Positions 11,470 to 39,742 of a stretch of 64,000 nt of DNA are shown here, one piece after another. A program made the position numbers and the translations under genes. The notes below the pieces were generated by a model. That model was not told where the DNA came from and did no database searches. It saw only the letters and a program-made list of their open reading frames with translations. The first letter of the stretch is position 1; each line of letters begins with the position of its first letter. Origin of the DNA: Herbaspirillum autotrophicum (GTDB taxonomy: Bacteria > Pseudomonadota > Gammaproteobacteria > Burkholderiales > Burkholderiaceae_D). The DNA lies in assembly GCF_001189915.1 (NCBI RefSeq), contig NZ_LFLS01000009.1, forward strand, positions 1-64,000, written 5' to 3'.

Positions 11470-11982
11470 TCAGTGACTGCGCAGGCGATTGAGCATCGTC
11501 GGCACGATGCATTTGTGAATCGGCCTGACGACGAACATGTAAGCGCGTCCCAGCAATTTATTGGTGCGGACTACGGTGGTGACGGTCAGTCGCTGCGGCA
11601 CGCTGCCACCGGCTTCGGTGCGTTGCACCCAGATGCGAAAGTCGAGGTGATGATCATCAAAGCCGAGCAATACCTGATTCTCGCTGTTTGACATGACCGG
11701 AAAGCCGGAAATGGCGTCGCGGGCAAGCGGCTGGATATGCATGCCGACTTGCTTCAGCCCGAGCTTGCCGACAATCGCGTTGCGCACGCGCATCAGGGTT
11801 TGAATCCATCCCGGCGTGCGGCCAAACATCTGCTGCGCCAGCGCATGCGCGGAACAGGTCTGGCTGCCCGGCGGCAGCGCGATTTCAAACGCATCGGCAA
11901 AATCGGCGCCGGCCAGCGACTGTTTCAAATCAGCGGCAGGTGCGACGGCGACCGCCTTCGCGCTGGTATTGGTGGTGGTCAT
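11470..11982 (-). CDS. DUF2867-family protein encoded at the end of the cyd operon
   Basis: A 170-residue soluble protein resembling DUF2867. Recognisable segments are DFADAFEIALP, the central FPVMSNSENQVLLGFDDHHLDFR, and a basic C-terminus VRPIHKCIVPTMLNRL. The family has no firm biochemical function; some members are fused to NAD-binding domains. Its ATG overlaps the cydX stop codon (ATGA), so it is translationally coupled to the cytochrome bd genes. That suggests a role in oxidase assembly, haem handling or respiration, but nothing in the sequence proves it. Confidence 0.75.
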   Translation of the reverse strand: MTTTNTSAKAVAVAPAADLKQSLAGADFADAFEIALPPGSQTCSAHALAQQMFGRTPGWIQTLMRVRNAIVGKLGLKQVGMHIQPLARDAISGFPVMSNSENQVLLGFDDHHLDFRIWVQRTEAGGSVPQRLTVTTVVRTNKLLGRAYMFVVRPIHKCIVPTMLNRLRSH

Positions 11983-12146
11983 TTTTTTCTGTTTCCTTTG
12001 GTGCCGGCGCTGGCCGCAGCGAAGCGTTCTTTGGTTTCATCTTCGTTGCGACGACCGAAGGCGTAGTTGGCTTCCAGCCACATGACATTGATGATGCCGA
12101 ACGCCAGTGCCAGACCGACGCCGAGAATCCATGCGAAGTACCACAT
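11979..12146 (-). CDS. cydX: Cytochrome bd oxidase small subunit CydX
   Basis: A 55-residue single-pass membrane protein. It begins MWYFAWILGVGLALAFGIIN and continues with the CydX signature VMWLEANYAF, then a charged cytosolic tail. In Escherichia coli CydX is a structural subunit that stabilises the haem site of cytochrome bd. It follows cydB by 15 bases with a ribosome site (GGAGGG) in the gap. Its TGA overlaps the ATG of the DUF2867 gene. Confidence 0.93.
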   Translation of the reverse strand: MWYFAWILGVGLALAFGIINVMWLEANYAFGRRNEDETKERFAAASAGTKGNRKK

Positions 12147-25969: not shown

Positions 25970-26320
25970 TCAGCAATGCATCAGTATATTGACCAGTTTG
26001 CCAAACGGGTCGCGCACATAAAAGCGCCGTACGCCCCAGGGTTCGTCGACCGGGCCATACTCGATTGCAAAGCCGGCCCCGGTCATGCGTTCCAGCGCAA
26101 CCGCAAGATCATCGACTTCAATCGACAGATCCGGCGTGGCGGTTCCTGATCCGCCTTGCGTGGCAAAGCTGATCTGGATTGCCATTTGCTGTTGTGAGCC
26201 ATAGGTTGCAATCCAGCCTTGATCCATCAATACATCGAGTCCCAGCACATCGTGATAAAAGCGCCCCGCCGCAGCCGTCGCTGGCGTATTGATATTGGCA
26301 ACAATCCGTTTGACTTGCAT
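25970..26320 (-). CDS. VOC/glyoxalase-fold protein
   Basis: A 116-residue vicinal-oxygen-chelate protein with one pair of beta-alpha-beta-beta-beta modules. Segments KRIVANINTPATAAAGRFYHDVLGL and VRRFYVRDPFGKLVNIL are typical ends of the two modules. Such proteins act as glyoxalases, dioxygenases or antibiotic-binding proteins, and no metal-ligand set is clear enough to choose. ATG 26320 is used. It is the first gene of a three-gene minus-strand group. Confidence 0.8.
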   Translation of the reverse strand: MQVKRIVANINTPATAAAGRFYHDVLGLDVLMDQGWIATYGSQQQMAIQISFATQGGSGTATPDLSIEVDDLAVALERMTGAGFAIEYGPVDEPWGVRRFYVRDPFGKLVNILMHC

Positions 26321-26794
26321 GCGAGAAACTCCCAGAAGCAATGGCTGCGATGAGCGGCAACTTTACCATGGGCGGACGGCGCAGGTTGGCGGCCACAGGA
26401 TTGGATTGCCGGGATGAAATGTGGTCCGCAAGAAATGATCGCGATGCGTTTGCAACAAATGCTGAAGCGCCGCATTTGAGGTTGCGCGCGAGCTGGCGTC
26501 ATAGGGAAATCAGGCGCATCACACGCAGCAATCGCGCTGCGGCGAGTCCCGCGCAGCCTTGCCGGCAAAATATATTGTTGAGGGTTGAGCACCCAAACGG
26601 TGAAAACTGTTATCGAAATATTACTAATTATTATTAAAAAAACAACAATTGTGCATTCGAATATCTTTTACAATCAGTTTCGATAGTTTTTTGATAACGA
26701 ATGCTCCTGAGTATTGCTGCTCGGCATATGATGGGGGCAAACGATACTTTCATTCCGGCTGGTCCGATTGTCCGTATTAAAGTAGGGGGGGAGA
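26321..26794. other. Intergenic region upstream of the pel leader
   Basis: The 474 bases between the VOC gene (-) and the pel leader ORF (+) hold no supportable gene of normal size. 26620-26700 is strikingly AT-rich (ATTACTAATTATTATT followed by A-runs), unlike the rest of the window, and is the best place for the pel promoter or nucleoid-protein binding. I could not identify a c-di-GMP riboswitch or a clear regulator site. Confidence 0.5.
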
Positions 26795-26878
26795 ATGAGC
26801 AACGCTATACATTGCGCTGATCGTTTCATATCAGCTACCCGTTTTACCGCTGACGCGGCTGCGAAAGGCCTGTTTTGA
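26795..26878 (+). CDS. Putative 27-residue leader ORF coupled to pelA
   Basis: The ORF starts ATG AGC AAC GCT and encodes 27 residues (starting MSNAIHCADRF and ending AAAKGLF). An unusually strong purine run, AGGGGGGGAG (26784-26793), stands directly before the ATG. The TGA stop at 26876-26878 overlaps the TTG start of pelA at 26875-26877, the same geometry as ATGA coupling. No database support is possible here, so coding is inferred from the ribosome site and the overlap. Confidence 0.5.
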   Translation: MSNAIHCADRFISATRFTADAAAKGLF

Positions 26879-29787
26879 TACCGGCGTTGCGTCGTTATTG
26901 CGGCCTGGCATTGACACTGTTGCTGTCCTGCGCAGGCGTCACTGCCCAGACTGCACCGGTGTCGGCACTGTCGTCGGCCGCATTCTATTACGGCGAACAG
27001 CCGCCGCTTTCCGATTTGCAGGCATTCGATATTGCCGTGGTCGAACCGGATCACGTGCGCCATCCTGCACAGCGCAGTCGTTCCGGTGACAGTGGCAGGC
27101 ACGAGTTGTTCGCCTATGTCTCCCTCGGTGAAGTGCATTCCACGCGTGACTATTACAAGCAACTCCCGGCCGGCAGTCTGCGCACCGAGAACGCGGCCTG
27201 GAACAGCAGCGTGATCGATCAGACGGCACCCGGCTGGAGCGAATTCTTTTTGTCGAAAATCATCGCGCCGCTGTGGGAAAAAGGCTGGCGCGGTTTCTTC
27301 CTCGATACGCTGGACTCTTATCAGTTGTTTGCCAAGACCGATGCTGAACGCAAGATTCAGGTCGATGCCATGGTCGCCACATTGCGCGAATTCAAGCGCC
27401 GTTATCCGGATGCCAAACTGATTCTGAATCGCGGCTTTGAAATGCTGCCGGAGATTGCCCCGCTGACCTATGCTGTGGCGGCGGAATCGCTGTATAGCCG
27501 CTACGATGCCGGCCGTCGTCAATACGGTGCGGTGCCGGAAAATGATCGCTCGTGGTTGCTGGCGCATATGGAACTGGTGCGCGATCAGTATCACTTGCCG
27601 GTGATCTCCATCGATTATGTTGATCCGGCCAAACCGAACGCGCGCGAACTGGCACGCGCCACCGCGAAGAAAATTGCCGCGCACGGTTTCATTCCGTGGG
27701 TTGCCGATGGCGGTCTCGCTTCGATGGGTGTCAGCAATATCGAAACCATTCCACGGACCGTGCTGGTACTACTGGATGTGCCTGCCGGCGAGGATTTGCA
27801 CACCACGGAAGCGCAACGCTTTCTCGGTATCCATCTGAACTATCTTGGTCTGCGCTATGAGTTTGTCGACCTGGCGTCGGAATCGCTGCCGCAAAAAATT
27901 CTGGCCGGCCGCTATGCCGGCGTGGTGAGCTGGTTTGCTGGCGGCGCCTATCACCCGGAATTGTTGCCATGGCTCAAAAAGCGCAAGGATGAAGGCGTGC
28001 CGGTAGCGATTCTGAGCAAGCTGGGCTTTCAATTGTCACCGGCGGCGGCAACGCAATTGGGGTTGACCGCATTTACCACTGGCAAGCCGGACAAGTTGAC
28101 GGTGGTATCCAGTGATCCGGAAATGATCGGCTTCGAAACACCGCCGCGTCCGGACCGGACTGAAATCGACTTTTTGCGACTGGCCAATGCCAGCGATAAA
28201 TCCTTGTTGCGGTTGCAGGATGGGCGCGGCAATATTTACGACGCTGCGGCAATCACGCCGTGGGGCGGATTTGCATTGTCGCCGTTTGTGGTGGCCAGCA
28301 TTCCGGGTACCGAACAATCGTTTTGGGTGTTGCAGCCGCAGAAATTCTTGCGGGCGGCATTGCGCCTGCCGGAGATGCCGGTGCCCGATGTCACGACCGA
28401 AGGCGGGCGCCGCATTCTGATGAGTCACGTCGATGGCGACGGCTTTGCGTCACGGGCAGAAGTACCTGGCACACCGTTATCGGTGCAGGTATTGCAAAAG
28501 GAGATCTGGGAAAAATATCAGATTCCGGTGACGATTTCGGTGATCGAAGGCGAAATCAGCCCGAAGGGCGTGTATCCGCAACTGTCGGCGCAAACCGAGG
28601 CACTGGCCAGAAAACTGTTTCAACTGCCGTATGTGGAACCGGCCAGCCATACTTATTCGCATCCGTTTTCGTGGCGCGATGCGATGGATCCGGAACGGGC
28701 GGCGGTGGCTCATGTGCCCGGCGAAGAAGAAGCACACCGTCTGGATGTACCCGGTTACGTGTTTGATTTGCAGCGTGAAATCAAGGGCTCGATGGATTAC
28801 GTCAATACCTTGCTGGGCGGCGGCAAAAAGGCCGAAGTGCTGCTCTGGACCGGGAATTGCGAACCGTTGCCGGCGGCCATTGCGCAAACCTATCTCGATG
28901 GCTACCTGAACATGAATGGCGGCGATACGCTGATCACCGAAAGCAACAAGACCTGGACCGAGATTGCCTCGCAAGGAATTCGCAAAAAGGGCTGGTACCA
29001 GGTGTTTGCGCCTAACCAGAATGAGAATGTCTATACCAATAACTGGACCGGCCCGTTTTATGGTTTCGAGCGCGTGATCGAAACCTTCAAGCTGACCGAA
29101 GAGCCGGTGCGCTTCAAGCCGGTCGATATCTATTTCCATTTTTATGCCGGCACCAAGCCAGCCACGCTGGGCGCGCTGCAAAAGATTCATAGCTGGGCCG
29201 TTGCGCAACCGTTCACCCGTTTGTATTCCTCGCAGTACATCCGCAAGGTGCTGGATTTTGAAAACACCAGCTACGCCCGCAGCATTGATGGCGGTGATCT
29301 GGTGATCCGTACCGGCAAGCACTTGCGTACCTTGCGCTTGCCACCCGGCGCGGCGACGCCATCGCTCAGCGTCAGCAGCGGCGTAGCCGGCGTGGCGCCG
29401 GGACCAGCCGGTGCCTATCTGATCACCAGTGCCGGCGAAGTGCGGGTGTCGTCGCAGCCACAGGTCAAACCGATTTTGGCTTTATACGAAGCAAGCGGTG
29501 CCGTCAGCAATTTCAGCCGTACCGAAACCGCCGGCGGCAGCAATCTCAGCTTTACGCTGAGTGCCAATGGCGCCGCCAGCTTCAGCGTCAGCAACAGCAA
29601 CAAATGCAGTGCGACGGCAGACGGCAAGGCGCTGACGCGTTCAGCCGGTAACAAGAACAGCATCGCATCATCCAAATACGCAGCACAATCGGCAGCACAC
29701 TTGGCCATTACACAATATGAAATCAGGACCTCGCCAAACAACTTCGCAACCACCGAATACAACGTACGCGTTCAATGCGCCGCATGA
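26875..29787 (+). CDS. pelA: Pel polysaccharide hydrolase/deacetylase
   Basis: A 970-residue periplasmic enzyme that trims and partially de-N-acetylates the Pel polymer. After a signal peptide (ALTLLLSCAGVTAQ), a TIM-barrel glycoside hydrolase domain (about 35-290) has the catalytic-type E204 in AAESLYSRYD. A linking domain (about 295-500) follows. The deacetylase domain has HVDGDGF (D520) and SHTYSHPF (H592, H596), with the same spacing as the catalytic set reported for Pseudomonas PelA. The start is TTG with AAAGG upstream, overlapping the leader ORF stop. The 3' end overlaps pelB by 71 bases. Confidence 0.95.
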   Translation: MIPALRRYCGLALTLLLSCAGVTAQTAPVSALSSAAFYYGEQPPLSDLQAFDIAVVEPDHVRHPAQRSRSGDSGRHELFAYVSLGEVHSTRDYYKQLPAGSLRTENAAWNSSVIDQTAPGWSEFFLSKIIAPLWEKGWRGFFLDTLDSYQLFAKTDAERKIQVDAMVATLREFKRRYPDAKLILNRGFEMLPEIAPLTYAVAAESLYSRYDAGRRQYGAVPENDRSWLLAHMELVRDQYHLPVISIDYVDPAKPNARELARATAKKIAAHGFIPWVADGGLASMGVSNIETIPRTVLVLLDVPAGEDLHTTEAQRFLGIHLNYLGLRYEFVDLASESLPQKILAGRYAGVVSWFAGGAYHPELLPWLKKRKDEGVPVAILSKLGFQLSPAAATQLGLTAFTTGKPDKLTVVSSDPEMIGFETPPRPDRTEIDFLRLANASDKSLLRLQDGRGNIYDAAAITPWGGFALSPFVVASIPGTEQSFWVLQPQKFLRAALRLPEMPVPDVTTEGGRRILMSHVDGDGFASRAEVPGTPLSVQVLQKEIWEKYQIPVTISVIEGEISPKGVYPQLSAQTEALARKLFQLPYVEPASHTYSHPFSWRDAMDPERAAVAHVPGEEEAHRLDVPGYVFDLQREIKGSMDYVNTLLGGGKKAEVLLWTGNCEPLPAAIAQTYLDGYLNMNGGDTLITESNKTWTEIASQGIRKKGWYQVFAPNQNENVYTNNWTGPFYGFERVIETFKLTEEPVRFKPVDIYFHFYAGTKPATLGALQKIHSWAVAQPFTRLYSSQYIRKVLDFENTSYARSIDGGDLVIRTGKHLRTLRLPPGAATPSLSVSSGVAGVAPGPAGAYLITSAGEVRVSSQPQVKPILALYEASGAVSNFSRTETAGGSNLSFTLSANGAASFSVSNSNKCSATADGKALTRSAGNKNSIASSKYAAQSAAHLAITQYEIRTSPNNFATTEYNVRVQCAA

Positions 29788-32700
29788 ACGTCTGAAATTG
29801 TTTTCGCCGTGGACGATCGCCGGTTTCGGACTGGCGGTCGGCCTCGGACTGGTGCTCGTTTATCCGCACACGCCGCTGGAGCAACGCTTCTCGACGACGG
29901 CCAATGGCGCGCGTCCGGACCGGTTGACGGTGGAGTACCTGAAAGTGTTTCTGAAGGCGCAACCCAAGGCCGACAGTTTGCGCGCAGAGCTGGTCAAGCA
30001 ACTGGTGTTGCTGGGCTTGTACGACGAAGCGCGCACGCAGTTGGCGTTGTTGCGCAAAGCGCCGGACCAGCGTTATCAACTGACCGCCGACTGGTATGAG
30101 TATCAGATACTGGAAAACGAAACCTATGCGGAACCGGAAAATTCACCGGAACGCAAGACACGGATGGCGCAGTTGCAGGCATTCCAGCGTGAATTGCTGA
30201 AGCAGCCGCTTGATGCCAGTCAGTTGCAAACGGTGGCGCAACGGGCGCTGGCGCAGGGCGATATCGCTACCGGCACGGCGGCGTTGCAATTGCTGGCCAA
30301 GAATCCGAGTGCGCTGAGCGTCGATCAGAATGTGGCATCGGCGTTGCAGAGTCTCGGGTTGGGCGACTACCGCAGCAGCGCGGCGTTCTATTTCCGCGCC
30401 ATGGATGACAGCTCCAATATCGACCGCCAGCGAGAATACTATCTGAGCGCCTTGCGCACCTTGCAGTCCGGTCGTCTGTATGACGAAGCGATCGCCGCCG
30501 CCGATGCCCATATCGGGCCACTCAGCCGCGACAAGCCAACCTTGCTGTTCCTGGCGCGGCTGGCGCAATCGTCCAACAAGCTGGACGCTGCCGAACGTTA
30601 CATCAAGCAATTGCTGAAGCTGTCGATGCTCAAGCCGCGCGGTGATGCGCGCCCGGCGCGGCAACAGGTCAGGTATCAAAGCATGCAGGAATACGCCGCC
30701 AATCTGCGCGAGACCATGCTGCATCCGCAATATCAGATCGGTGCCGTGCATATCATTCGTGCTGCCGATACCAGCGGACCATTACAAGCCAGTCTGCCGT
30801 TCGACGATGAAAGCTACACGCTGAGTTACAACATTTTCCTGGCCAACCGCAATCTGACCGATGCCCGCTTGCTGGCGCAATCGGCAGTACGGCAGCAGCC
30901 CGGTTCGGCGGCCTGGAACAAGCGGCTGGCGGAAGTCAGCGAGTGGAGCGGCGCGCCGGATCAGGCGCTGACAGCGTGGCAGAACTATGCCCGGGTCAGC
31001 GGCGATGAAGCCGGTTGGGATGCGGTGCTGCGCCTGAGTCAGGGGACCTATTCGCAAGGGCCGCAGCAGGCGGCGCTGGAACACAAGCTGCGCACCGATC
31101 CGAACAATCCCAAGTGGCTGGATCTGTTGCTGAGCCAAAGCGAAACCGTCGGCGATCCGCGCCGTGCGGCAGCGTTGCTGGAAGGGCGGTTGGGCAGCAG
31201 CAATCGGGCACCGCAGTTTGCCGCCCAGCGCGAACGTGAATTTCAACTGCTGGCTGCCGTCTACGAACGCAGCGGCGATGATGCGCAAGCGCTGGCAACC
31301 TTGCGGCGGGCGCAGGCCGAGTTCGGTCCCAAGGCCAGCTATGCCTTGCTGATCGCCAATCAGTTGTATCGTCGGGGTCGGATCGAAGAAGCGATGGCGG
31401 CGTTGCAGGAAGCAGCGCCGGTGACGCCGGCCGACAACGGCGAATTCTGGCGCACGCATGCAGAAGTGGCGCGGTTCCTGCAGCAAGATGAAGTGGCGCG
31501 CGACAGCTATCGCCGCTTGCTGACATCGAACCAGCAAACCGATGCCGACATCACCAACATGATTGCCTTGATCGAAGACGAGCAACCATTGGCGGCGGCC
31601 AACCTGGCCGAGTTCGGCTATCTCAAGAGCGGCAAGCCGGAATTCGCGACCCAGGCACTGGGCAACCGCATGCGTGCACTCGACTATCGCGGCGCGCAAG
31701 CATTCCTGGATCAGTTGCCAGCGTCCGCGCTGGTCAAGCTGGAACGCAATGGCAACTTCCTTGCCGCGCGCGCCGAAGTGCGGCAAGCCAATCGCAATAT
31801 CAAGGGCGCTGCCAGCGACTTGCGGGCGGCACTGGTGATCAGTCCCGGTGACAGCAATTTGCGCGCCGGTCTGATCTGGACCATGATCGCCCAACGCGAC
31901 ACTCACGGTCTCAAACGGGTGTTGCGTTTGTGGTCGGCCGATGCCGAAAGCAATGCGCTGATGTGGGGACCGTTCGCAGCGGCCAACATGTCGATCAACC
32001 GGCAACGCACGGCATTGCATTGGTTTCGCAAATCGGGTTTCCTGAAAAATGATTACTTGTGGTTGCTGAATTACGCCGAGTGCCTGGAAGCCAACAGCCA
32101 GCCTGATCTGGCCTGGCGCATCCGACGCAAGGCATGGCTCGATTTGCGCAAACCGGAAGTGTTGAGCAATGCCAATCCGGGGCAGTTGCGTGACATCCGT
32201 GACCGTCTGGCGTCACTGGCGCCGATGTTCATGCAATCCGATGCCAGCAACCGGGTCATGCAATCGCTGTTGCGTGCGGATGTCGCCAAACTGGCCGCGA
32301 CGCCGGAAGCGGTGCCGGTACCGGCCGATGGACCGGCGCTGTTGCGATTGCTGGAAAGCGAACGTGTGCAAGCCAAAGGCACGGCCGCCACCGAAGCCAG
32401 CCTGAAGGGCATGTTTGCCGCACCCGGTACCCGGCGCGACGATGCACGGCTCTCGGCCAGCGTGCGGGAAGTGGCACTGGCCTATGCCTTGAGTCAGGAA
32501 TCCTATGACCTGGCGCATGCGTGGCTGGCGACCCGTTTTGCCAACAACATGGACAAGCCGTTGTGGGGTGAATTCTCGCTGACGCTGGCCGACAATGACC
32601 GCGATCATCTGAATCAATTGCTCGATAACGTGGCCGACTGGTTGCCGATGTATGAACGCATCGATGCCGCCAAACTGGCCGGACGCGATCCGCTGGCGCA

Positions 32701-33703
32701 AACACTGGCCTTCGATCAACTGGCGATTCTGCCGCATGACGAAGAGTTGCATCAGCGCCTGACCAGTCTGGTAACCGAAGATCCGGCTTCGTTCTCGGCC
32801 TCGGTCACACGCTTGCGCGATGCGCCGTGGCAAGGCACGCGCTCGGAAGTGCAGAGCGGCTGGTCGATCACGGGCGGCACGCGCTTGTATGTCAAGTTGA
32901 GCCAGATCAATCAAAGCAGCAGCGACGACACCCAAATGGTCAATGTGCCGGCGCTGGACCGGCTGGTGGAAGTCACCGTTCGTCGTCGTCTCGATAAAGG
33001 TTTTGTGGCGTTCAGCGTGTCGCATCGTCAGGCCGCTGCCGATACCAACGGCGCACGGGTCGACTTCAGCACCGCGTTGACCGGACGCCTGACCATGACC
33101 GGTGAGATCGGCATCCATCAGATGGCAACCGAGTCGGTGCTGATGCGCGTCGGTGGCATGCGCAGTGGTGCCGATCTGAATCTGAATTATGCGGTGACCC
33201 ACAATGAGTATCTGAGCGGCGGCATCGGCTGGCAGCAGTACGCGACGCAAGCCGGCACCAGGCTTGGCAGCGGCACCAACTTCAATCTGGAAGCCGGTAC
33301 CCATTTCCGCATCGAGTATCCGAATCTGACCTTGCGCACTTACGTATCGGGCAGCAATTTCAAGGACAAGGGCTCTTACGATGCGCAGATCGCGCGACTG
33401 GTGCCGCCGGGGACCGACCCCGCCACGTATCGTTACATGCCGGTCAACACCCGCGTCTACGGTATCAGCCTGGGTGCCGGCACGGTCATCGACAACACGT
33501 ATACGCGCGGCTGGCGGCCGTTCGGCGAATTCGGCATGACGTATACACCGGACTTGGGCTGGGGCCGCAATTTCCGCACCGGCGTGCAAGGAAGCGTGAT
33601 CGGGCAGGATGTATTAAGCGTGCAGTTGCAAAGCATCAGCGCGACCGCGAATTCACCACAGAGGTCTTTTGAGCTAGGAGTAAATTACAAATGGTTATAT
33701 TAA
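29717..33703 (+). CDS. pelB: Pel export outer-membrane porin with TPR scaffold
   Basis: A 1328-residue protein. An N-terminal membrane anchor (WTIAGFGLAVGLGLVLVYP, about 30-48) is followed by long periplasmic helical TPR-like repeats (about 70-1000). The C-terminal beta-barrel of about 280 residues ends FELGVNYKWLY with a terminal aromatic, as outer-membrane proteins do. It exports Pel and brings PelA to the exit site. It is longer than Pseudomonas PelB (about 1190 residues). ATG 29717 overlaps the end of pelA by 71 bases; a later start such as TTG 29797 just before the anchor is possible. Confidence 0.94.
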   Translation: MKSGPRQTTSQPPNTTYAFNAPHERLKLFSPWTIAGFGLAVGLGLVLVYPHTPLEQRFSTTANGARPDRLTVEYLKVFLKAQPKADSLRAELVKQLVLLGLYDEARTQLALLRKAPDQRYQLTADWYEYQILENETYAEPENSPERKTRMAQLQAFQRELLKQPLDASQLQTVAQRALAQGDIATGTAALQLLAKNPSALSVDQNVASALQSLGLGDYRSSAAFYFRAMDDSSNIDRQREYYLSALRTLQSGRLYDEAIAAADAHIGPLSRDKPTLLFLARLAQSSNKLDAAERYIKQLLKLSMLKPRGDARPARQQVRYQSMQEYAANLRETMLHPQYQIGAVHIIRAADTSGPLQASLPFDDESYTLSYNIFLANRNLTDARLLAQSAVRQQPGSAAWNKRLAEVSEWSGAPDQALTAWQNYARVSGDEAGWDAVLRLSQGTYSQGPQQAALEHKLRTDPNNPKWLDLLLSQSETVGDPRRAAALLEGRLGSSNRAPQFAAQREREFQLLAAVYERSGDDAQALATLRRAQAEFGPKASYALLIANQLYRRGRIEEAMAALQEAAPVTPADNGEFWRTHAEVARFLQQDEVARDSYRRLLTSNQQTDADITNMIALIEDEQPLAAANLAEFGYLKSGKPEFATQALGNRMRALDYRGAQAFLDQLPASALVKLERNGNFLAARAEVRQANRNIKGAASDLRAALVISPGDSNLRAGLIWTMIAQRDTHGLKRVLRLWSADAESNALMWGPFAAANMSINRQRTALHWFRKSGFLKNDYLWLLNYAECLEANSQPDLAWRIRRKAWLDLRKPEVLSNANPGQLRDIRDRLASLAPMFMQSDASNRVMQSLLRADVAKLAATPEAVPVPADGPALLRLLESERVQAKGTAATEASLKGMFAAPGTRRDDARLSASVREVALAYALSQESYDLAHAWLATRFANNMDKPLWGEFSLTLADNDRDHLNQLLDNVADWLPMYERIDAAKLAGRDPLAQTLAFDQLAILPHDEELHQRLTSLVTEDPASFSASVTRLRDAPWQGTRSEVQSGWSITGGTRLYVKLSQINQSSSDDTQMVNVPALDRLVEVTVRRRLDKGFVAFSVSHRQAAADTNGARVDFSTALTGRLTMTGEIGIHQMATESVLMRVGGMRSGADLNLNYAVTHNEYLSGGIGWQQYATQAGTRLGSGTNFNLEAGTHFRIEYPNLTLRTYVSGSNFKDKGSYDAQIARLVPPGTDPATYRYMPVNTRVYGISLGAGTVIDNTYTRGWRPFGEFGMTYTPDLGWGRNFRTGVQGSVIGQDVLSVQLQSISATANSPQRSFELGVNYKWLY

Positions 33704-33717
33704 CTGGTGGACATACT

Positions 33718-34263
33718 ATGAAAACACACATCCTCAATTTTTCCCGCATTCTGCTGGCAGGCGTCCTGTTGGCAGTGTTGGCGGCGTGTTCGACGGTGGA
33801 CGTCGGCCCGGCACCAACGTTGGAAGCCAAAGCATCATGGGCCTTGCTGCCATTTGCCAACAATACGGAAACACCGCAAGCCGGTTTGCGGGCCGAAGCC
33901 ATTTCGGAAAGTCTGTTGCGCGCCAATGGCGTGAACAATCTGCGTCGCTATCCAAGCAATCTGAATACCGAAACCTTGTTTGAACCGATGGATCGCAAGC
34001 AACTCGATGCCGCGCTGGAATGGGCCCGCGCCGAGAACCTGAAATATGCATTGACCGGTACCGTCGATGAATGGCGTTACAAGGTCGGTATCGATGGCGA
34101 ACCGGCAGTCGGCCTGACCTTGCAATTGATTGAAGTATCCAGCGGCAACGTGGTGTGGGCAGCCAGTGGCGGTAAAACCGGCTGGAGCCGCGAAGCTTTG
34201 TCTGCAGTGGCGCAGAAATTGTCGCGCACCTTGCTTAATCCTCTGATCGCCAGTGCGCGCTGA
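33718..34263 (+). CDS. pelC: Pel outer-membrane lipoprotein
   Basis: A 181-residue lipoprotein. The signal peptide ILLAGVLLAVLAAC has a lipobox ending at C24. The mature domain resembles the PelC/CsgG-like fold with GKTGWSREALSAVAQKLSRTLL at the end. In Pseudomonas, PelC forms a dodecameric ring below the PelB barrel that guides the polymer. I chose ATG 33718 for the shorter signal peptide. ATG 33691, preceded by TAGGAG and overlapping pelB by 13 bases, is also possible. Confidence 0.92.
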   Translation: MKTHILNFSRILLAGVLLAVLAACSTVDVGPAPTLEAKASWALLPFANNTETPQAGLRAEAISESLLRANGVNNLRRYPSNLNTETLFEPMDRKQLDAALEWARAENLKYALTGTVDEWRYKVGIDGEPAVGLTLQLIEVSSGNVVWAASGGKTGWSREALSAVAQKLSRTLLNPLIASAR

Positions 34264-34272
34264 CAGGTTGCC

Positions 34273-35733
34273 GTGAATACTCAGTCCAACTCCGCGCAAA
34301 ATGCGGCCCGCAGCGGCCCGGGAAAGCGGCCGACAGGCGGTATCGTACGTCCCGGTTCCAACTGGTGGCGACGTATTTTCCCGCGCACGCAGGCGGCCAG
34401 TCTGAGTCCCTGGGCAGCAGTACTGCGCATACTGGAAGCAGCGTTGTTTGTCGCCCTGGCGTTGCTGTTCAGTTTCTGGGCCACACCCGCCGATCCGTTC
34501 GGCGTGGCTGGCGAATTTCCGTGGATTTGGATCGTGCCGGCAGTATTGGCAATGCGTTACGGCACCGGTATCGGCGTCATTTCAGTGCTGCTGTTGCTGC
34601 TCAGCTGGTTTGGCTGGAGTTACCTGTTCCCCGGCGGCAGCGGCAAAGTATTTCCGCAAGTGTATTTCCTGGGCGGTCTGGTATTGACCTTGTTGTGTGG
34701 CCAGTTCTGCGAAGTCTGGAACGCCCGCAGTCGTCGTTTGAGCGCCATCAATTCGTATCTGGACGAACGACTCACGATGCTGACCAAGAAGCATTTTCTG
34801 TTGCGGTTGTCGCATGAACGGCTGGAGCAGGATTTGCTGTCCAAGCCGCTGACCTTGCGCGAATCGCTTGAGCGCATGCGTGCCTTGACCATCAATCAGG
34901 CCGTCAGTGCCGGCAATCCTTTGCCTGCCGCCAATGCGTTCATGCAGATTCTGGTGCAAAGCTGCCAATTGGAAGTGGCGGCGTTGTACGCTTGCGATGC
35001 ACATGGCAAGGTGTTGCATCAGGCCGTGGCAACGCTGGGTCAGCCGGCACCGCTGGACAGTGGCGATTCGTTGCTGCTGTATTGTTTGCAGCAGCAAAAG
35101 CTGGCGCATGTGCAAACCATCGCCATGCCGCATCAGCAAAGCAGTCGTTATCTGATCTGCGCGCCGCTCAAGAATTTCGATGGCTCGGTGTTCGGTGTGC
35201 TGGTGGTGGAAAAGCTGCCATTCGTGGCACTCAATGAAGACACGCTGCAATTGTTGTCGGTGCTGGTGGATTACTACGCCGACGGGGTACAGATGAGCGG
35301 CGCGGCACATGAAATCGTGGAGCATGTGCCTGGTTGTCCATCCGATCTGGCGATTGATATCGTGCGCTTGCATCGCCTCAAGGCCAATACCGATATCGAT
35401 TCGGCACTGGTGGCGCTGGTTCTCGATGATGATGAAATTTCGCGCGACATGTTCGAGCAGATCAAACGTCTCAAGCGCGCCGCCGACGTGGTGTGGGAAA
35501 TCTCCGCCGGCGCGCCGGCGAACCCGGCACTCACTCGCAATATATTGATCACGTTATTGCCGCTGGCCGGGTCGGCGGCGGTGGAGGGTTATCTGATGCG
35601 TATCGAAGAAGTCATGCAGGCGCAGTTTGGCGGAAAGTATCTGACCAGCTATGCGCAGGTGCATACCGAGCACATGGGCCACGACAGCCCGGTGCACATG
35701 CTGGAAAAACTGGTGCAACGCTGTGTTGTATAA
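34273..35733 (+). CDS. pelD: Cyclic-di-GMP-binding inner-membrane regulator of Pel synthesis
   Basis: A 486-residue protein with about four N-terminal helices (about 55-150), a short coiled stretch, a GAF domain (about 195-340) and a degenerate GGDEF-like domain. The RxxD I-site motif appears as RAAD at residues 402-405, in the position expected for c-di-GMP binding. PelD activates the synthase post-translationally when c-di-GMP is high. The start is GTG 34273, ten bases after pelC. Lacking a cyclase motif, it is a receptor, not an enzyme. Confidence 0.93.
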   Translation: MNTQSNSAQNAARSGPGKRPTGGIVRPGSNWWRRIFPRTQAASLSPWAAVLRILEAALFVALALLFSFWATPADPFGVAGEFPWIWIVPAVLAMRYGTGIGVISVLLLLLSWFGWSYLFPGGSGKVFPQVYFLGGLVLTLLCGQFCEVWNARSRRLSAINSYLDERLTMLTKKHFLLRLSHERLEQDLLSKPLTLRESLERMRALTINQAVSAGNPLPAANAFMQILVQSCQLEVAALYACDAHGKVLHQAVATLGQPAPLDSGDSLLLYCLQQQKLAHVQTIAMPHQQSSRYLICAPLKNFDGSVFGVLVVEKLPFVALNEDTLQLLSVLVDYYADGVQMSGAAHEIVEHVPGCPSDLAIDIVRLHRLKANTDIDSALVALVLDDDEISRDMFEQIKRLKRAADVVWEISAGAPANPALTRNILITLLPLAGSAAVEGYLMRIEEVMQAQFGGKYLTSYAQVHTEHMGHDSPVHMLEKLVQRCVV

Positions 35734-36742
35734 GCTGACCTTTACCGGCATCGGCTTCGAGCTGGTTTCGATCTGGCTGCTGTTTTCGCACGATGCATCG
35801 ATGGCGCTGATGTTGTCGTATCTGGGCCTGCACGCCTTGTCGAGCATTCTGTTTTCACTGGCGCTCAGTTTTGTCGTGCCGAAACAGTACCGGCAACCGC
35901 GGCTGTGGTTGCTCGGCTATCTGTTCGCCTTCAATTTCTTCATGCCCATCGTCGGCTTGCCGTGTGCGGTACTGGCGATCATTATCGGCGCCTGGTTGCC
36001 AAAGATCGACAAGAAAAGCGAATTCGAGACCACCGTGCCACCGCAGTTCGCGGCGGTACACGGCCCCGAAGGCGCCGGCTTTCAGGGCAGCCGGATTCGG
36101 GCGCAACTGAGCAATCCGTCAATGCCGCTCGACGAACGACTGAACGCGCTGGCCGCGATCCAGAACACGCCGACCCGCAGCAGCAGCGGCTCCTTGCGCC
36201 AACTGCTGGCTGATCCGGCCGATGACGTGCGCATGCTGGCGTATGGCATTCTGGATGGCAAAGAAAAGAAAATCACGCATCGCATTATCGAAACTCGTCA
36301 GCAAATCGAGAGTGTCGATACCGACTGGCAACGCGCCGCATTGCACAAGCGGGTGGCCGAGTTGTATCAGGAATTGATTTATCAAAATCTGGTGCAGGGC
36401 GATTTGCTGACCTATTCGTGCGACCAGATGCGCGAACATGCGCAGCAGGCGCTGGACTTCAATCCGGATGATCAGGGCTTGTGGTTCATGCTGGGCCGGC
36501 TGGAACTGTTGTCCGGCAATGCCGCCAGCGCAGAACTGGCGTTTGACAATGCGCAACGCTATGGATTTTCGCGCGAGCGCTTGTTGCCCTATCTGGCCGA
36601 ACTCAGTTTTTTGAAAAAGAATTTTGACCGCGTACGCAGCCTGTTCGTTGAGATTGCCTTCAATCCCAGCGTGTCGATTGCCTCGCAACTACACCGGTAC
36701 TGGACGGCGCAAGCCGCGACCGGAGATCAGGAAAAGTCATGA
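35723..36742 (+). CDS. pelE: Pel inner-membrane scaffold with TPR domain
   Basis: A 339-residue protein. Two or three N-terminal membrane helices (about 5-100, e.g. YLGLHALSSILFSLALSFVV) are followed by a cytosolic helical TPR-like region with EHAQQALDFNPDDQGLWFMLGRLELLSGNAASAELAF. PelE holds the PelD-PelF-PelG complex together. The start appears to be GTG 35723 (a TTG follows directly), overlapping the pelD stop by 11 bases. A longer reading from 35651 would overlap pelD by 83 bases and encodes no membrane segment. It overlaps pelF by four bases (ATGA). Confidence 0.9.
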   Translation: MLYKLTFTGIGFELVSIWLLFSHDASMALMLSYLGLHALSSILFSLALSFVVPKQYRQPRLWLLGYLFAFNFFMPIVGLPCAVLAIIIGAWLPKIDKKSEFETTVPPQFAAVHGPEGAGFQGSRIRAQLSNPSMPLDERLNALAAIQNTPTRSSSGSLRQLLADPADDVRMLAYGILDGKEKKITHRIIETRQQIESVDTDWQRAALHKRVAELYQELIYQNLVQGDLLTYSCDQMREHAQQALDFNPDDQGLWFMLGRLELLSGNAASAELAFDNAQRYGFSRERLLPYLAELSFLKKNFDRVRSLFVEIAFNPSVSIASQLHRYWTAQAATGDQEKS

Positions 36743-38337
36743 GTCATACCGCCGCCGTGCCGGATATCCGCCGCAGCGCAACCGACTGCGATGTGATGTT
36801 GTTGCTGGAAGGAACCTTCCCCTTCGTCAGCGGCGGTGTGTCGAGTTGGGTCAATCAGATCATTCGCGGCTTTCCGGAAATCCGCTTCGGCATCTGCTTC
36901 ATCGGCAGCCGCAAGGAAGACTACGGGGTCGCCAAATATGCGTTGCCTGACAACGTCGTGCATTTGGAAATTCATTACATGCACGAGCGCTATGAGGCGC
37001 CGGAAGTCAGGGAAAGTCGCGGCAACGGCAAAGCGTTCTTGCAAATGGATTTGCTGCATGAGCAGTTGCGTGTCGGCCGCACCGGTCGCGACAAGCCGGA
37101 CGTGACAGCGTTGCTGGCGCCGCTGGTGCCATTGCTGGAAGAGGGCAAGGCGCTCGATGAATCGGCCTTTCTGTACAGCGAAGAAGCCTGGAAATACACC
37201 ACGGAAAAGTATCGCGAATTTTGTACCGATCCATCGTTCGTCGATTACTTCTGGACCGTGCGCACCATGCACAAGCCGATCTGGAATCTGGCCAAGGTTG
37301 CACGCAACATGATTCCGGCGCGCTGCTATCACACCATTTCCACCGGTTATGCCGGCTTTCTCGGCAGCTTGCTGAAATTGCAGAATGGCAAACCGTTGCT
37401 GTTGTCCGAGCATGGCATCTACACCAAGGAACGCAAGATCGATCTGTTCCAGAGTGAATGGATTCATGACAATCGTGACGTGTTTGAAAAGGATGCCTCG
37501 CAGATTCCGTATTTCCGTGATTTGTGGATGCGCTTTTTCGAAGCGCTGGGGCGCATGTGTTATCAGAGCGCCGATCAGATCGTGGCATTGTATGAAATCA
37601 ACCGTTTGCGCCAGGTCGCTGACGGCGCGCCGGCTGCTGTTACCCGCAATATCCCGAATGGCATCGATTTGCCGCGTCTGTCCGCATTGCGCGCCTTGCG
37701 CAGCAAGGAAATTCCGCCGGTGCTGTGTCTGCTGGGACGGGTGGTACCTATCAAGGACGTCAAGAATTTCATTCGTGCCATGCGTACCGTGGTCACTTTG
37801 TATCCCGATGCCGAAGCATGGATTGCCGGTCCGGAAGATGAAGATGTGGCCTATGCCGAAGAGTGTCGCGGCATCGCTGAAGGTCTCGGTTTGGCCAGCA
37901 AAGTCAAATTCCTCGGTTATCAGAAGATCGATGAGCTGATGCCGAAGATCGGGCTGGTGATGTTGTCCAGCATCAGCGAAGCGTTGCCGCTGGTGTTGCT
38001 GGAAGGGTTTGCGGCCGGCGTACCGGCAGTGGCAACCGACGTCGGTTCGTGCCGTCAGTTGATCTATGGCCTGGACGATGCGGATCAGGCCCTGGGTGCC
38101 GCCGGCGCCGTGGTTGGCATTGCCGAGCCGCAGGCGCTGGCGCGGGCCGCAGTGGAGCTGCTGACCGACCCGGTCAAGTGGCATGCCGCACAAGCCGCCG
38201 GTATTGCCCGGGTCGAACGTTACTACACGCAGGACATGATGTTTGCATCGTACCGGCAGTTGTATCAAGGTGCATTCGAGCAGGAAGCCGGACAGCCGCA
38301 GCAGAAAAAACTGACTTGCCCGATGGGGCATGCATAA
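36739..38337 (+). CDS. pelF: Pel glycosyltransferase (GT4)
   Basis: A 532-residue cytosolic GT-B glycosyltransferase that polymerises Pel from UDP-sugars (GalNAc/GlcNAc/galactose in Pseudomonas). The N-terminal domain has LLLEGTFPFVSGGVSSWVNQI. The C-terminal nucleotide-sugar domain has LGRVVPIKDVKNFIRAM and the EX7E motif (E414 to E422 in SEALPLVLLEGFAAG). The length fits PelF. Start ATG 36739 overlaps the pelE stop (ATGA). Confidence 0.96.
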   Translation: MSHTAAVPDIRRSATDCDVMLLLEGTFPFVSGGVSSWVNQIIRGFPEIRFGICFIGSRKEDYGVAKYALPDNVVHLEIHYMHERYEAPEVRESRGNGKAFLQMDLLHEQLRVGRTGRDKPDVTALLAPLVPLLEEGKALDESAFLYSEEAWKYTTEKYREFCTDPSFVDYFWTVRTMHKPIWNLAKVARNMIPARCYHTISTGYAGFLGSLLKLQNGKPLLLSEHGIYTKERKIDLFQSEWIHDNRDVFEKDASQIPYFRDLWMRFFEALGRMCYQSADQIVALYEINRLRQVADGAPAAVTRNIPNGIDLPRLSALRALRSKEIPPVLCLLGRVVPIKDVKNFIRAMRTVVTLYPDAEAWIAGPEDEDVAYAEECRGIAEGLGLASKVKFLGYQKIDELMPKIGLVMLSSISEALPLVLLEGFAAGVPAVATDVGSCRQLIYGLDDADQALGAAGAVVGIAEPQALARAAVELLTDPVKWHAAQAAGIARVERYYTQDMMFASYRQLYQGAFEQEAGQPQQKKLTCPMGHA

Positions 38338-38371
38338 GTCGTCTAAAAATTAACCGAAAAATGGGCCCTCA

Positions 38372-39742
38372 ATGGCTGGCATAGGATTTGAATTAAGAAA
38401 GATTCTCAAGCGAGATAATCTGGTATCGCTGCTGCAGGCATATTCTTATGCGGCGCTGATCAGTTCCGGCTCGTGGGTCTTGTCCATCGTCGGTATTCTG
38501 ATTATCGGTCTGCTCAGTTATACGGTGGTGGTGCCGAGCGAAATCATTGTCCAGTTTCAGGTCAGCATCACCTATGTGATTGCCGGCTCGCTGGTGTTTA
38601 CCGGCGTCTTTCAACTGGCGTTGACGCGCTTTACGGCAGACCGTCTGTTCGAGAAAAAAACCGACATCATTCTGCCCAATTTTCATGCCGTAGCGCTGAC
38701 CGTCACGGTCAGTTCCGGCGTCGTCGGCCTGCTGTGCGTAATGTTCCTGTTCCCGCAGCAAAGCGTTCTGTATCGCCTGTTGTTGCTGGCGGCATTCGTG
38801 ATCATGTGCAATATCTGGATTGCCACCATCTTCCTTTCGGGGATGAAGCAATACCGCTCCATCGTCTGGCTGTACTTGCTGGGCTATGCCATCACGGTAG
38901 TGGTCGCGCTGGGCTTGCGGCAACAGGGGCTGGAAGGATTGATGGCCGGCTTCGTGATCGGCCAGGCAATGATGATGATGGGCATGATGGCGCTGATCCT
39001 GCGCAACTTCACTGCGGCCAGTTTTATTTCCTTCGAATTTTTCAACAAGCACATGTTGTACCCGTCGCTGATGGTGGTCGGTTTGATGTATAACGCCGCG
39101 ATCTGGGTCGACAAGGTCATGTTCTGGTACACCGAAGAAACCAGTCAGGCCATCATCGGCCCGCTGCGGGCATCGATGATTTACGATTTGCCGGTGTTTC
39201 TGGCCTATCTGGCGATCATCCCCGGCATGGCGATTTTCCTGTTGCGCATGGAAACCGATTTCGTTGAAGACTACGATAATTTCTATCAGGCCGTGCGTTC
39301 CGATGCCTCGCTGGAAACCATTGAAAAACATCGCAACGATATGGTGGAAACCATTCGTCTCGGCATTTTCGAAATCATCAAGATCCAGGCGATCGTGACC
39401 TTGTTGCTGATTGTCGCCGGCAAAGCGATTCTGACCTGGCTCGGTATCTCCACCATGTATCTGCAATTGCTGTTCATCGATATCATCGCTGCCAGCCTGC
39501 AGGTTGTCTTGCTCGGGATTCTGAATGTCTTCTTCTATCTGGATAAACGGCGGATCGTGGTGTGGTTGTGCACCAGTCTGTTTTTCCTCAACATCATTTT
39601 TACCTGGATGTCATTGCAACTGGGGCCGAATTTCTATGGCTACGGTTTTGCGGTTTCGGTATTGATCGTGGTGCTGGCAGGCTTTGTCATGATGTCGCGT
39701 ACCATGGCCAGACTCGAATACGAGACGTTCATGTTGCAGTAG
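38372..39742 (+). CDS. pelG: Pel inner-membrane flippase-like protein
   Basis: A 456-residue protein with about 12 membrane helices, of the PST/Wzx-like MOP exporter type. It starts MAGIGFELRKILKRDNLVSLLQAYSYA cut by the first helix SWVLSIVGILIIGLLSY, and later has LYNAAIWVDKVMFWYT. It works with PelD, PelE and PelF to move the polymer across the inner membrane. It is the same size as Pseudomonas PelG. It lies 34 bases after pelF and closes the operon. Confidence 0.95.
   Translation: MAGIGFELRKILKRDNLVSLLQAYSYAALISSGSWVLSIVGILIIGLLSYTVVVPSEIIVQFQVSITYVIAGSLVFTGVFQLALTRFTADRLFEKKTDIILPNFHAVALTVTVSSGVVGLLCVMFLFPQQSVLYRLLLLAAFVIMCNIWIATIFLSGMKQYRSIVWLYLLGYAITVVVALGLRQQGLEGLMAGFVIGQAMMMMGMMALILRNFTAASFISFEFFNKHMLYPSLMVVGLMYNAAIWVDKVMFWYTEETSQAIIGPLRASMIYDLPVFLAYLAIIPGMAIFLLRMETDFVEDYDNFYQAVRSDASLETIEKHRNDMVETIRLGIFEIIKIQAIVTLLLIVAGKAILTWLGISTMYLQLLFIDIIAASLQVVLLGILNVFFYLDKRRIVVWLCTSLFFLNIIFTWMSLQLGPNFYGYGFAVSVLIVVLAGFVMMSRTMARLEYETFMLQ

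Follow-up and report, generated by a model that had tools for sequence, protein, structure and literature searches.

A candidate ribosome-loading leader overlapping the TTG start of pelA in Herbaspirillum autotrophicum

Introduction

Genes whose stop and start codons overlap can be linked by termination and reinitiation; for such pairs in an archaeon and in Escherichia coli, translation was strictly coupled in 13 of the 14 cases tested, according to the part of PMC6728339 considered here. Short nonsense ORFs placed just upstream of a gene can raise its translation in E. coli by up to 20-fold, as described in PMC13255528, and PMC12121999 offers general precedent for regulatory upstream ORFs.

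Here, we analyze a stretch of 64,000 nucleotides from Herbaspirillum autotrophicum (contig NZ_LFLS01000009.1, positions 1–64,000 of the forward strand; hereafter the window), in which a 27-codon leader frame ends on the start codon of pelA. The leader and pelA share with the pairs of PMC6728339 the four-base stop/start overlap and the location of both frames on the same strand. The published pairs consist of two genes, whereas the upstream partner in the window is a frame of 27 codons without sign of function, and the overlap in the window is TTGA; neither TTGA nor UUG occurs at a word start in the main text of that paper. The E. coli nonsense ORFs are likewise short, immediately upstream and either in or out of register with their target, but those of PMC13255528 were designed, with a strong internal ribosome site by the stop, whereas the internal AAAGG of the window is weak. 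A further counterpart is a clade of ten related pelA loci (L004–L013, hereafter the fused clade), in which pelA is likewise fed from a strong site about as far ahead of the conserved FYYG motif, but through one continuous frame where the window would have a stop and a restart. Stop-start coupling of a leader to the next gene is an established mechanism and would not amount to a new class of regulation.

A literature search found no paper combining Herbaspirillum and the pel operon. Among the titles listed, none names a pelA leader, and PMC7705225, in the part considered, treats RsmA, Hfq and vfr with no mention of a pelA leader ORF.

Results

The leader frame was first described in a first-pass annotation, made from the letters alone, as an AGGGGGGGAG run followed by an ATG that opens a 27-residue ORF, and this description proved exact, base for base, by direct reading and in the ORF listing (Table 1). 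A26784, seven G residues (26785–26791) and AG (26792–26793) are followed by A26794 and the ATG at 26795–26797, and the frame encodes MSNAIHCADRFISATRFTADAAAKGLF. The overlap claimed for the leader stop and the pelA start is borne out by the same two sources: TGA 26876–26878 shares two bases with TTG 26875–26877. Since the pelA frame is open for only 21 nt on the 5′ side of this TTG, TTG 26875 is the furthest upstream start available to pelA; the next in-frame start is TTG 26887, and from TTG 26875 onward the frame is open across its full length.

Table 1. Features of the pelA leader region and the pel operon in the window
Feature	Position	Strand	Basis
AT-rich promoter-like block, also found upstream of the second pelA copy	26583..26684	+	local alignment, G+C profile
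TACAAT, candidate –10 element	26669..26674	+	shared by the two pelA copies
Strong ribosome-binding site AGGGGGGGAG of the leader	26784..26793	+	direct read, –11.5 kcal/mol with 16S tail
Leader ORF, 27 codons, ATG to TGA	26795..26878	+	direct read, ORF listing; intermediate codon score
AAAGG, weak pelA ribosome-binding site within the leader	26864..26868	+	direct read, –3.2 kcal/mol
TTGA, pelA start codon overlapping leader stop codon	26875..26878	+	direct read, ORF listing
pelA, 970 aa, signal peptide-like N-terminus then GH114 domain	26875..29787	+	ORF listing; Pfam PF03537, E 8.3e-21
Remaining pel operon, pelB to pelG	29717..39742	+	ORF listing and Pfam

The annotation had also contrasted a strong ribosome site at the leader with a weak one at the pelA TTG, and the computed duplexes with the 16S rRNA tail agree, the upstream site being clearly stronger than the downstream one (–11.5 vs –3.2 kcal/mol). 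Among 243 gene starts of the same genome, which were picked by script and are not annotated starts, 3.7% have a site as strong as that of the leader, 21% have one as weak as that of the TTG, and TTG is the picked start in 40. Unmasking of the TTG by a ribosome on the leader was considered as a special effect and rejected: with the bases covered by a leader ribosome kept unpaired, the computed energy needed to open the TTG is 8.1 instead of 13.7 kcal/mol, a drop that is ordinary because 70% of 120 sampled genes show one no greater than this (median 4.1 kcal/mol).

We then set the overlap against a background of 362 scripted genes in 464 kb, of which 158 are preceded by a gap of 100 nt or more. 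Frames of 10–60 codons were counted if their site reached –8.5 or better and their stop overlapped a start codon among the initial 30 codons of the following gene. Such a frame precedes 7 of the 158 gapped genes, the pelA of the window counted in, a figure based on 9 of 20 rows; among these seven, one could be a real small gene. Because comparable frames are found at this rate, the overlap by itself is not striking, and the pattern is real and uncommon, yet not extraordinary, at about one gapped gene in 20. Elsewhere in the window, at 11979–12146 on the minus strand, a 55-codon frame beginning MWYFAWILGVGLALAF also has a strong site and an ATGA overlap with the next start. We take this frame to resemble the small cytochrome bd subunit CydX/CbdX.

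As judged by codon usage, the leader lies between genes and open non-coding frames. Its third-position G+C is 44%, compared with 68% for genes, and its codon score of 0.073 can be set against a mean of 0.37 for in-frame windows (11% of which score below the leader) and of –0.27 for open off-frame windows (9% of 676 score above it). The leader is slightly outscored by one reverse-strand frame of this stretch (0.088), and scores for the first 27 codons of the extensions described below for the relatives range from –0.13 to 0.27.

Translated from the TTG, PelA begins with a short basic stretch and a hydrophobic stretch, judged by eye to be signal peptide-like, and continues into the conserved FYYG region. 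The operon is identified as pel by its gene order, pelA through pelG, and by diagnostic Pfam matches to, successively, GH114, the PelB C-terminal barrel, the PelD GGDEF, DUF3492/GT4 and PelG; the pelC and pelE ORFs (two of the seven) have no Pfam match and owe their names to position alone. Neighboring ORFs of the operon overlap or sit 9 and 34 nt apart.

The genome contains a second pelA (L002, C27:66955–69870, minus strand), whose product is 68% identical to PelA of the window and which pairs with the window's pelA in the tree with support of 93/99, just under the tool's mark for firm support. At the scan threshold, it has no strong-site leader; its start carries an ATGA, and a possible leader there has a weak site (–5.8). 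Upstream of LRR this copy has a cluster of three ATGs, at distances of 5, 3 and 1 residues, and PelA of the window begins four residues before LRR, so that a pelA start at the TTG fits the spacing of the second copy. The pelA frame of the second copy is open for 73 codons upstream, with an in-frame GTG at –57 codons and a weak site (–3.6).

Upstream regions of the two copies also share the promoter-like block of Table 1, which aligns with a score of 61; none of 200 mononucleotide shuffles scored above 30. The lowest G+C of the profiled area (0.24) is found at 26600–26699. Within the block, TACAAT sits 126 nt before the leader ATG and is a candidate only, because a sigma-70 consensus scan of 26300–27200 gives no site on the leader strand (and one on the other strand, vs 1.0 expected from shuffles). 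As a candidate –10 element it would place the transcript start near 26680, ahead of the leader, and a transcript from the block would accordingly be predicted to include the leader. From TACAAT to the FYYG motif the distance is 314 nt in the window vs 239 nt in the second copy; the 75 additional nucleotides correspond roughly to the length of the leader.

We next compared the locus with its relatives. The genome belongs to the Herbaspirillum group, the named relatives with the most similar PelA being Herbaspirillum and other Oxalobacteraceae, and the search places 33 further genomes in the genus of the window (34 with its own). A PelA query gave a match in 14 of 61 genomes, its own counted in, where one of the 14 is a weak match of 87 residues and another is truncated at the start. 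Because the nearest PelA sequences are 67–68% identical to that of the window, loss of the ATG or of the overlap in close relatives cannot properly serve as a test of the leader. The DNA of the leader region (361-base query) was found in 1 of the 34 genus genomes, the window's own, and nine plasmid records match the coding part of pelA only, at 70–81% identity. In a scan of 53 distinct pelA loci with a recognizable FYYG motif (30 loci lacking the motif were left out), the layout of the window without a strong in-frame start was present in two, the window itself and CAVE-383. Four other loci have leader-like frames beside a strong in-frame start, which gauges the rate of false positives.

In the fused clade, all ten loci have a strong in-frame pelA start (site –7.4 to –12.7) located 50–64 codons before FYYG, from which an uninterrupted extension runs, ahead of the hydrophobic stretch, into pelA. 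The leader ATG of the window lies 188 nt (about 63 codons) before FYYG and the TTG 36 codons before it, and an alignment of 13 loci sets the ribosome site of the window close to those of the fused relatives. The clade has tree support of 100/100 and is the only one with the strong-site fused state; its least certain member is L007, which has a stronger site inside its hydrophobic stretch. Translation of the extension is predicted from the ribosome site and the open frame. Differences between extensions, in the three usable pairs (two pairs with L005 were out of alignment and not used), show no preference for third codon positions, and the extension appears weakly constrained as protein at best.

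Eight members of the clade (L004, L005, L006, L008, L009, L010, L012 and L013) share, in the roughly 90 nt that precede the start of pelA, an element that reads approximately TCAGGAATTTCCGGAT and then TGGTYTCATGCGG; 24 of its 96 columns are invariant, the ribosome site and start among them, and the element was not recognized in the window by eye. L008 and L010 also contain a seven-G run in frame, at about codons 8–10 of the extension, as a possible slippage site.

CAVE-383 (L003) falls outside the fused clade and has a strong site (–10.8), a 14-codon leader and an ATGA overlap, with no ribosome site at the pelA ATG of the overlap (+0.6). Upstream, its pelA frame is open for 59 codons; the ATG located there, at –58 codons, has a weak site (–3.5). 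The upstream regions of CAVE-383 and the window align with a score of 22, compared with a shuffle mean of 21.5, and the two strong sites are not set against each other in either alignment tried; a shared origin of the two leaders thus finds no support in the alignments.

Four further Oxalobacteraceae loci (L016, L017, L018 and L020) have apparent pelA TTG starts 38–44 codons before FYYG with a site of –8.1 to –8.9, which is GGGAGAA-like in L016, L017 and L020. The outgroup L019 has a TTG start candidate with a site of –3.2, as in the window, and no strong-site leader.

Finally, we evaluated the leader as a sensor. The 27-residue peptide has no long run of one residue, no terminator-like site is found on the leader strand between 26300 and 27200, and the RNA folds no better than shuffled sequences (z of +0.91 and +1.00), such that the leader does not show the run of regulatory codons, combined with alternative RNA structures or a terminator, that would mark an amino-acid attenuator or stalling peptide. 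A structured RNA or riboswitch was likewise rejected, given three Rfam matches over 26300–27200 far below their family thresholds and folds that are no more stable than those of shuffled sequences.

Discussion

We propose that the leader is a ribosome-loading element and that translation restarts on pelA by stop-start coupling; this is our best reading of the sequence, and we put its probability at roughly one half. Ribosomes would bind the strong site at 26784–26793, translate 27 codons of no particular meaning and terminate at TGA 26876, whereupon the same ribosome, or its small subunit, would restart at the overlapping TTG with help from the weak AAAGG site. Coupling is favored because (i) the leader site is far stronger than that of the TTG, and (ii) a strong site occurs at a similar distance from FYYG in each of the ten fused relatives. 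The first-pass annotation had proposed such translational coupling and had regarded a TTG with a weak ribosome site as the kind of start that depends on it. The coupling is plausible in light of the strong leader site, the weak TTG, the TTGA overlap, the upstream promoter-like block and the analogous CAVE-383. The presence of the leader on the transcript, its translation, the restart and the dependence of pelA on the leader are all inferred, and the dependence is not compelled, because sites as weak as that of the TTG occur at about a fifth of scripted starts.

That frequency also bears on the possibility that the TTG initiates alone via AAAGG, the leader being incidental and of little effect on pelA. 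TTG is a regular choice among the scripted starts and seems to be used for pelA by other Oxalobacteraceae (L016–L020), comparable overlaps form a background among gapped genes, and the leader DNA lacks conservation in the genus. The leader site is nevertheless among the strongest 4% of scripted starts, and an analogous layout exists in CAVE-383. A site of this rank makes translation of the leader likely, provided that the transcript begins at the promoter-like block, and the ribosomes engaged on it would then stop on the TTG in any case. Independent initiation is, in our view, a possible but unlikely account of the locus. Alternatively, the leader could represent the 5′ end of the pelA coding sequence, namely an extension comparable to that of the fused clade that a small indel, whether an assembly error or a real mutation, has put out of register. 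The continuous extensions of all ten fused loci and the placement of the window's ribosome site near theirs argue for such a split, as do CAVE-383 and the second copy, where a longer PelA N-terminus is possible because the pelA frame is open upstream. However, the strong-site fused state is confined to one well-supported clade, the pelA frame of the window is open from the TTG over its full length, and a short N-terminus fits both the LRR position found for the second copy and the TTG starts seen in four family outgroups, whose distances from FYYG are close to that of the window. We therefore consider a split extension rather improbable.

A sensory role, in which the rate of leader translation would control pel by attenuation or stalling, finds general precedent in upstream ORFs of known regulatory function, as far as PMC12121999 was considered. 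Against it stand the composition of the peptide, the lack of a terminator-like site, the ordinary folds and the restriction of the leader DNA to a single genome of the genus, and we regard it as highly improbable. The earlier suggestion that pel might respond to amino-acid supply finds nothing to sustain it in the residue content, the folds, the Rfam scan, which gave no match at threshold, or the distribution of the DNA (1 of 34 genomes), and amino-acid sensing by the leader is unsupported.

If ribosome loading and restart is the correct reading, the loading of ribosomes on a short frame without meaning of its own would determine the output of pelA and perhaps that of the compact operon downstream. 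The annotation of pelA starts in the group would then need care, given that the strong site would serve pelA directly in one clade but a separate leader elsewhere, and the group would provide a natural case of an upstream frame that occurs both separate and fused. It is conceivable, although we hold it to be quite doubtful, that pelA is driven by a separate leader in the deep lineages of the Herbaspirillum group and that one clade fused this same leader into the PelA signal peptide. With such a history, a regulatory upstream frame would have become part of the N-terminus of a secreted enzyme.
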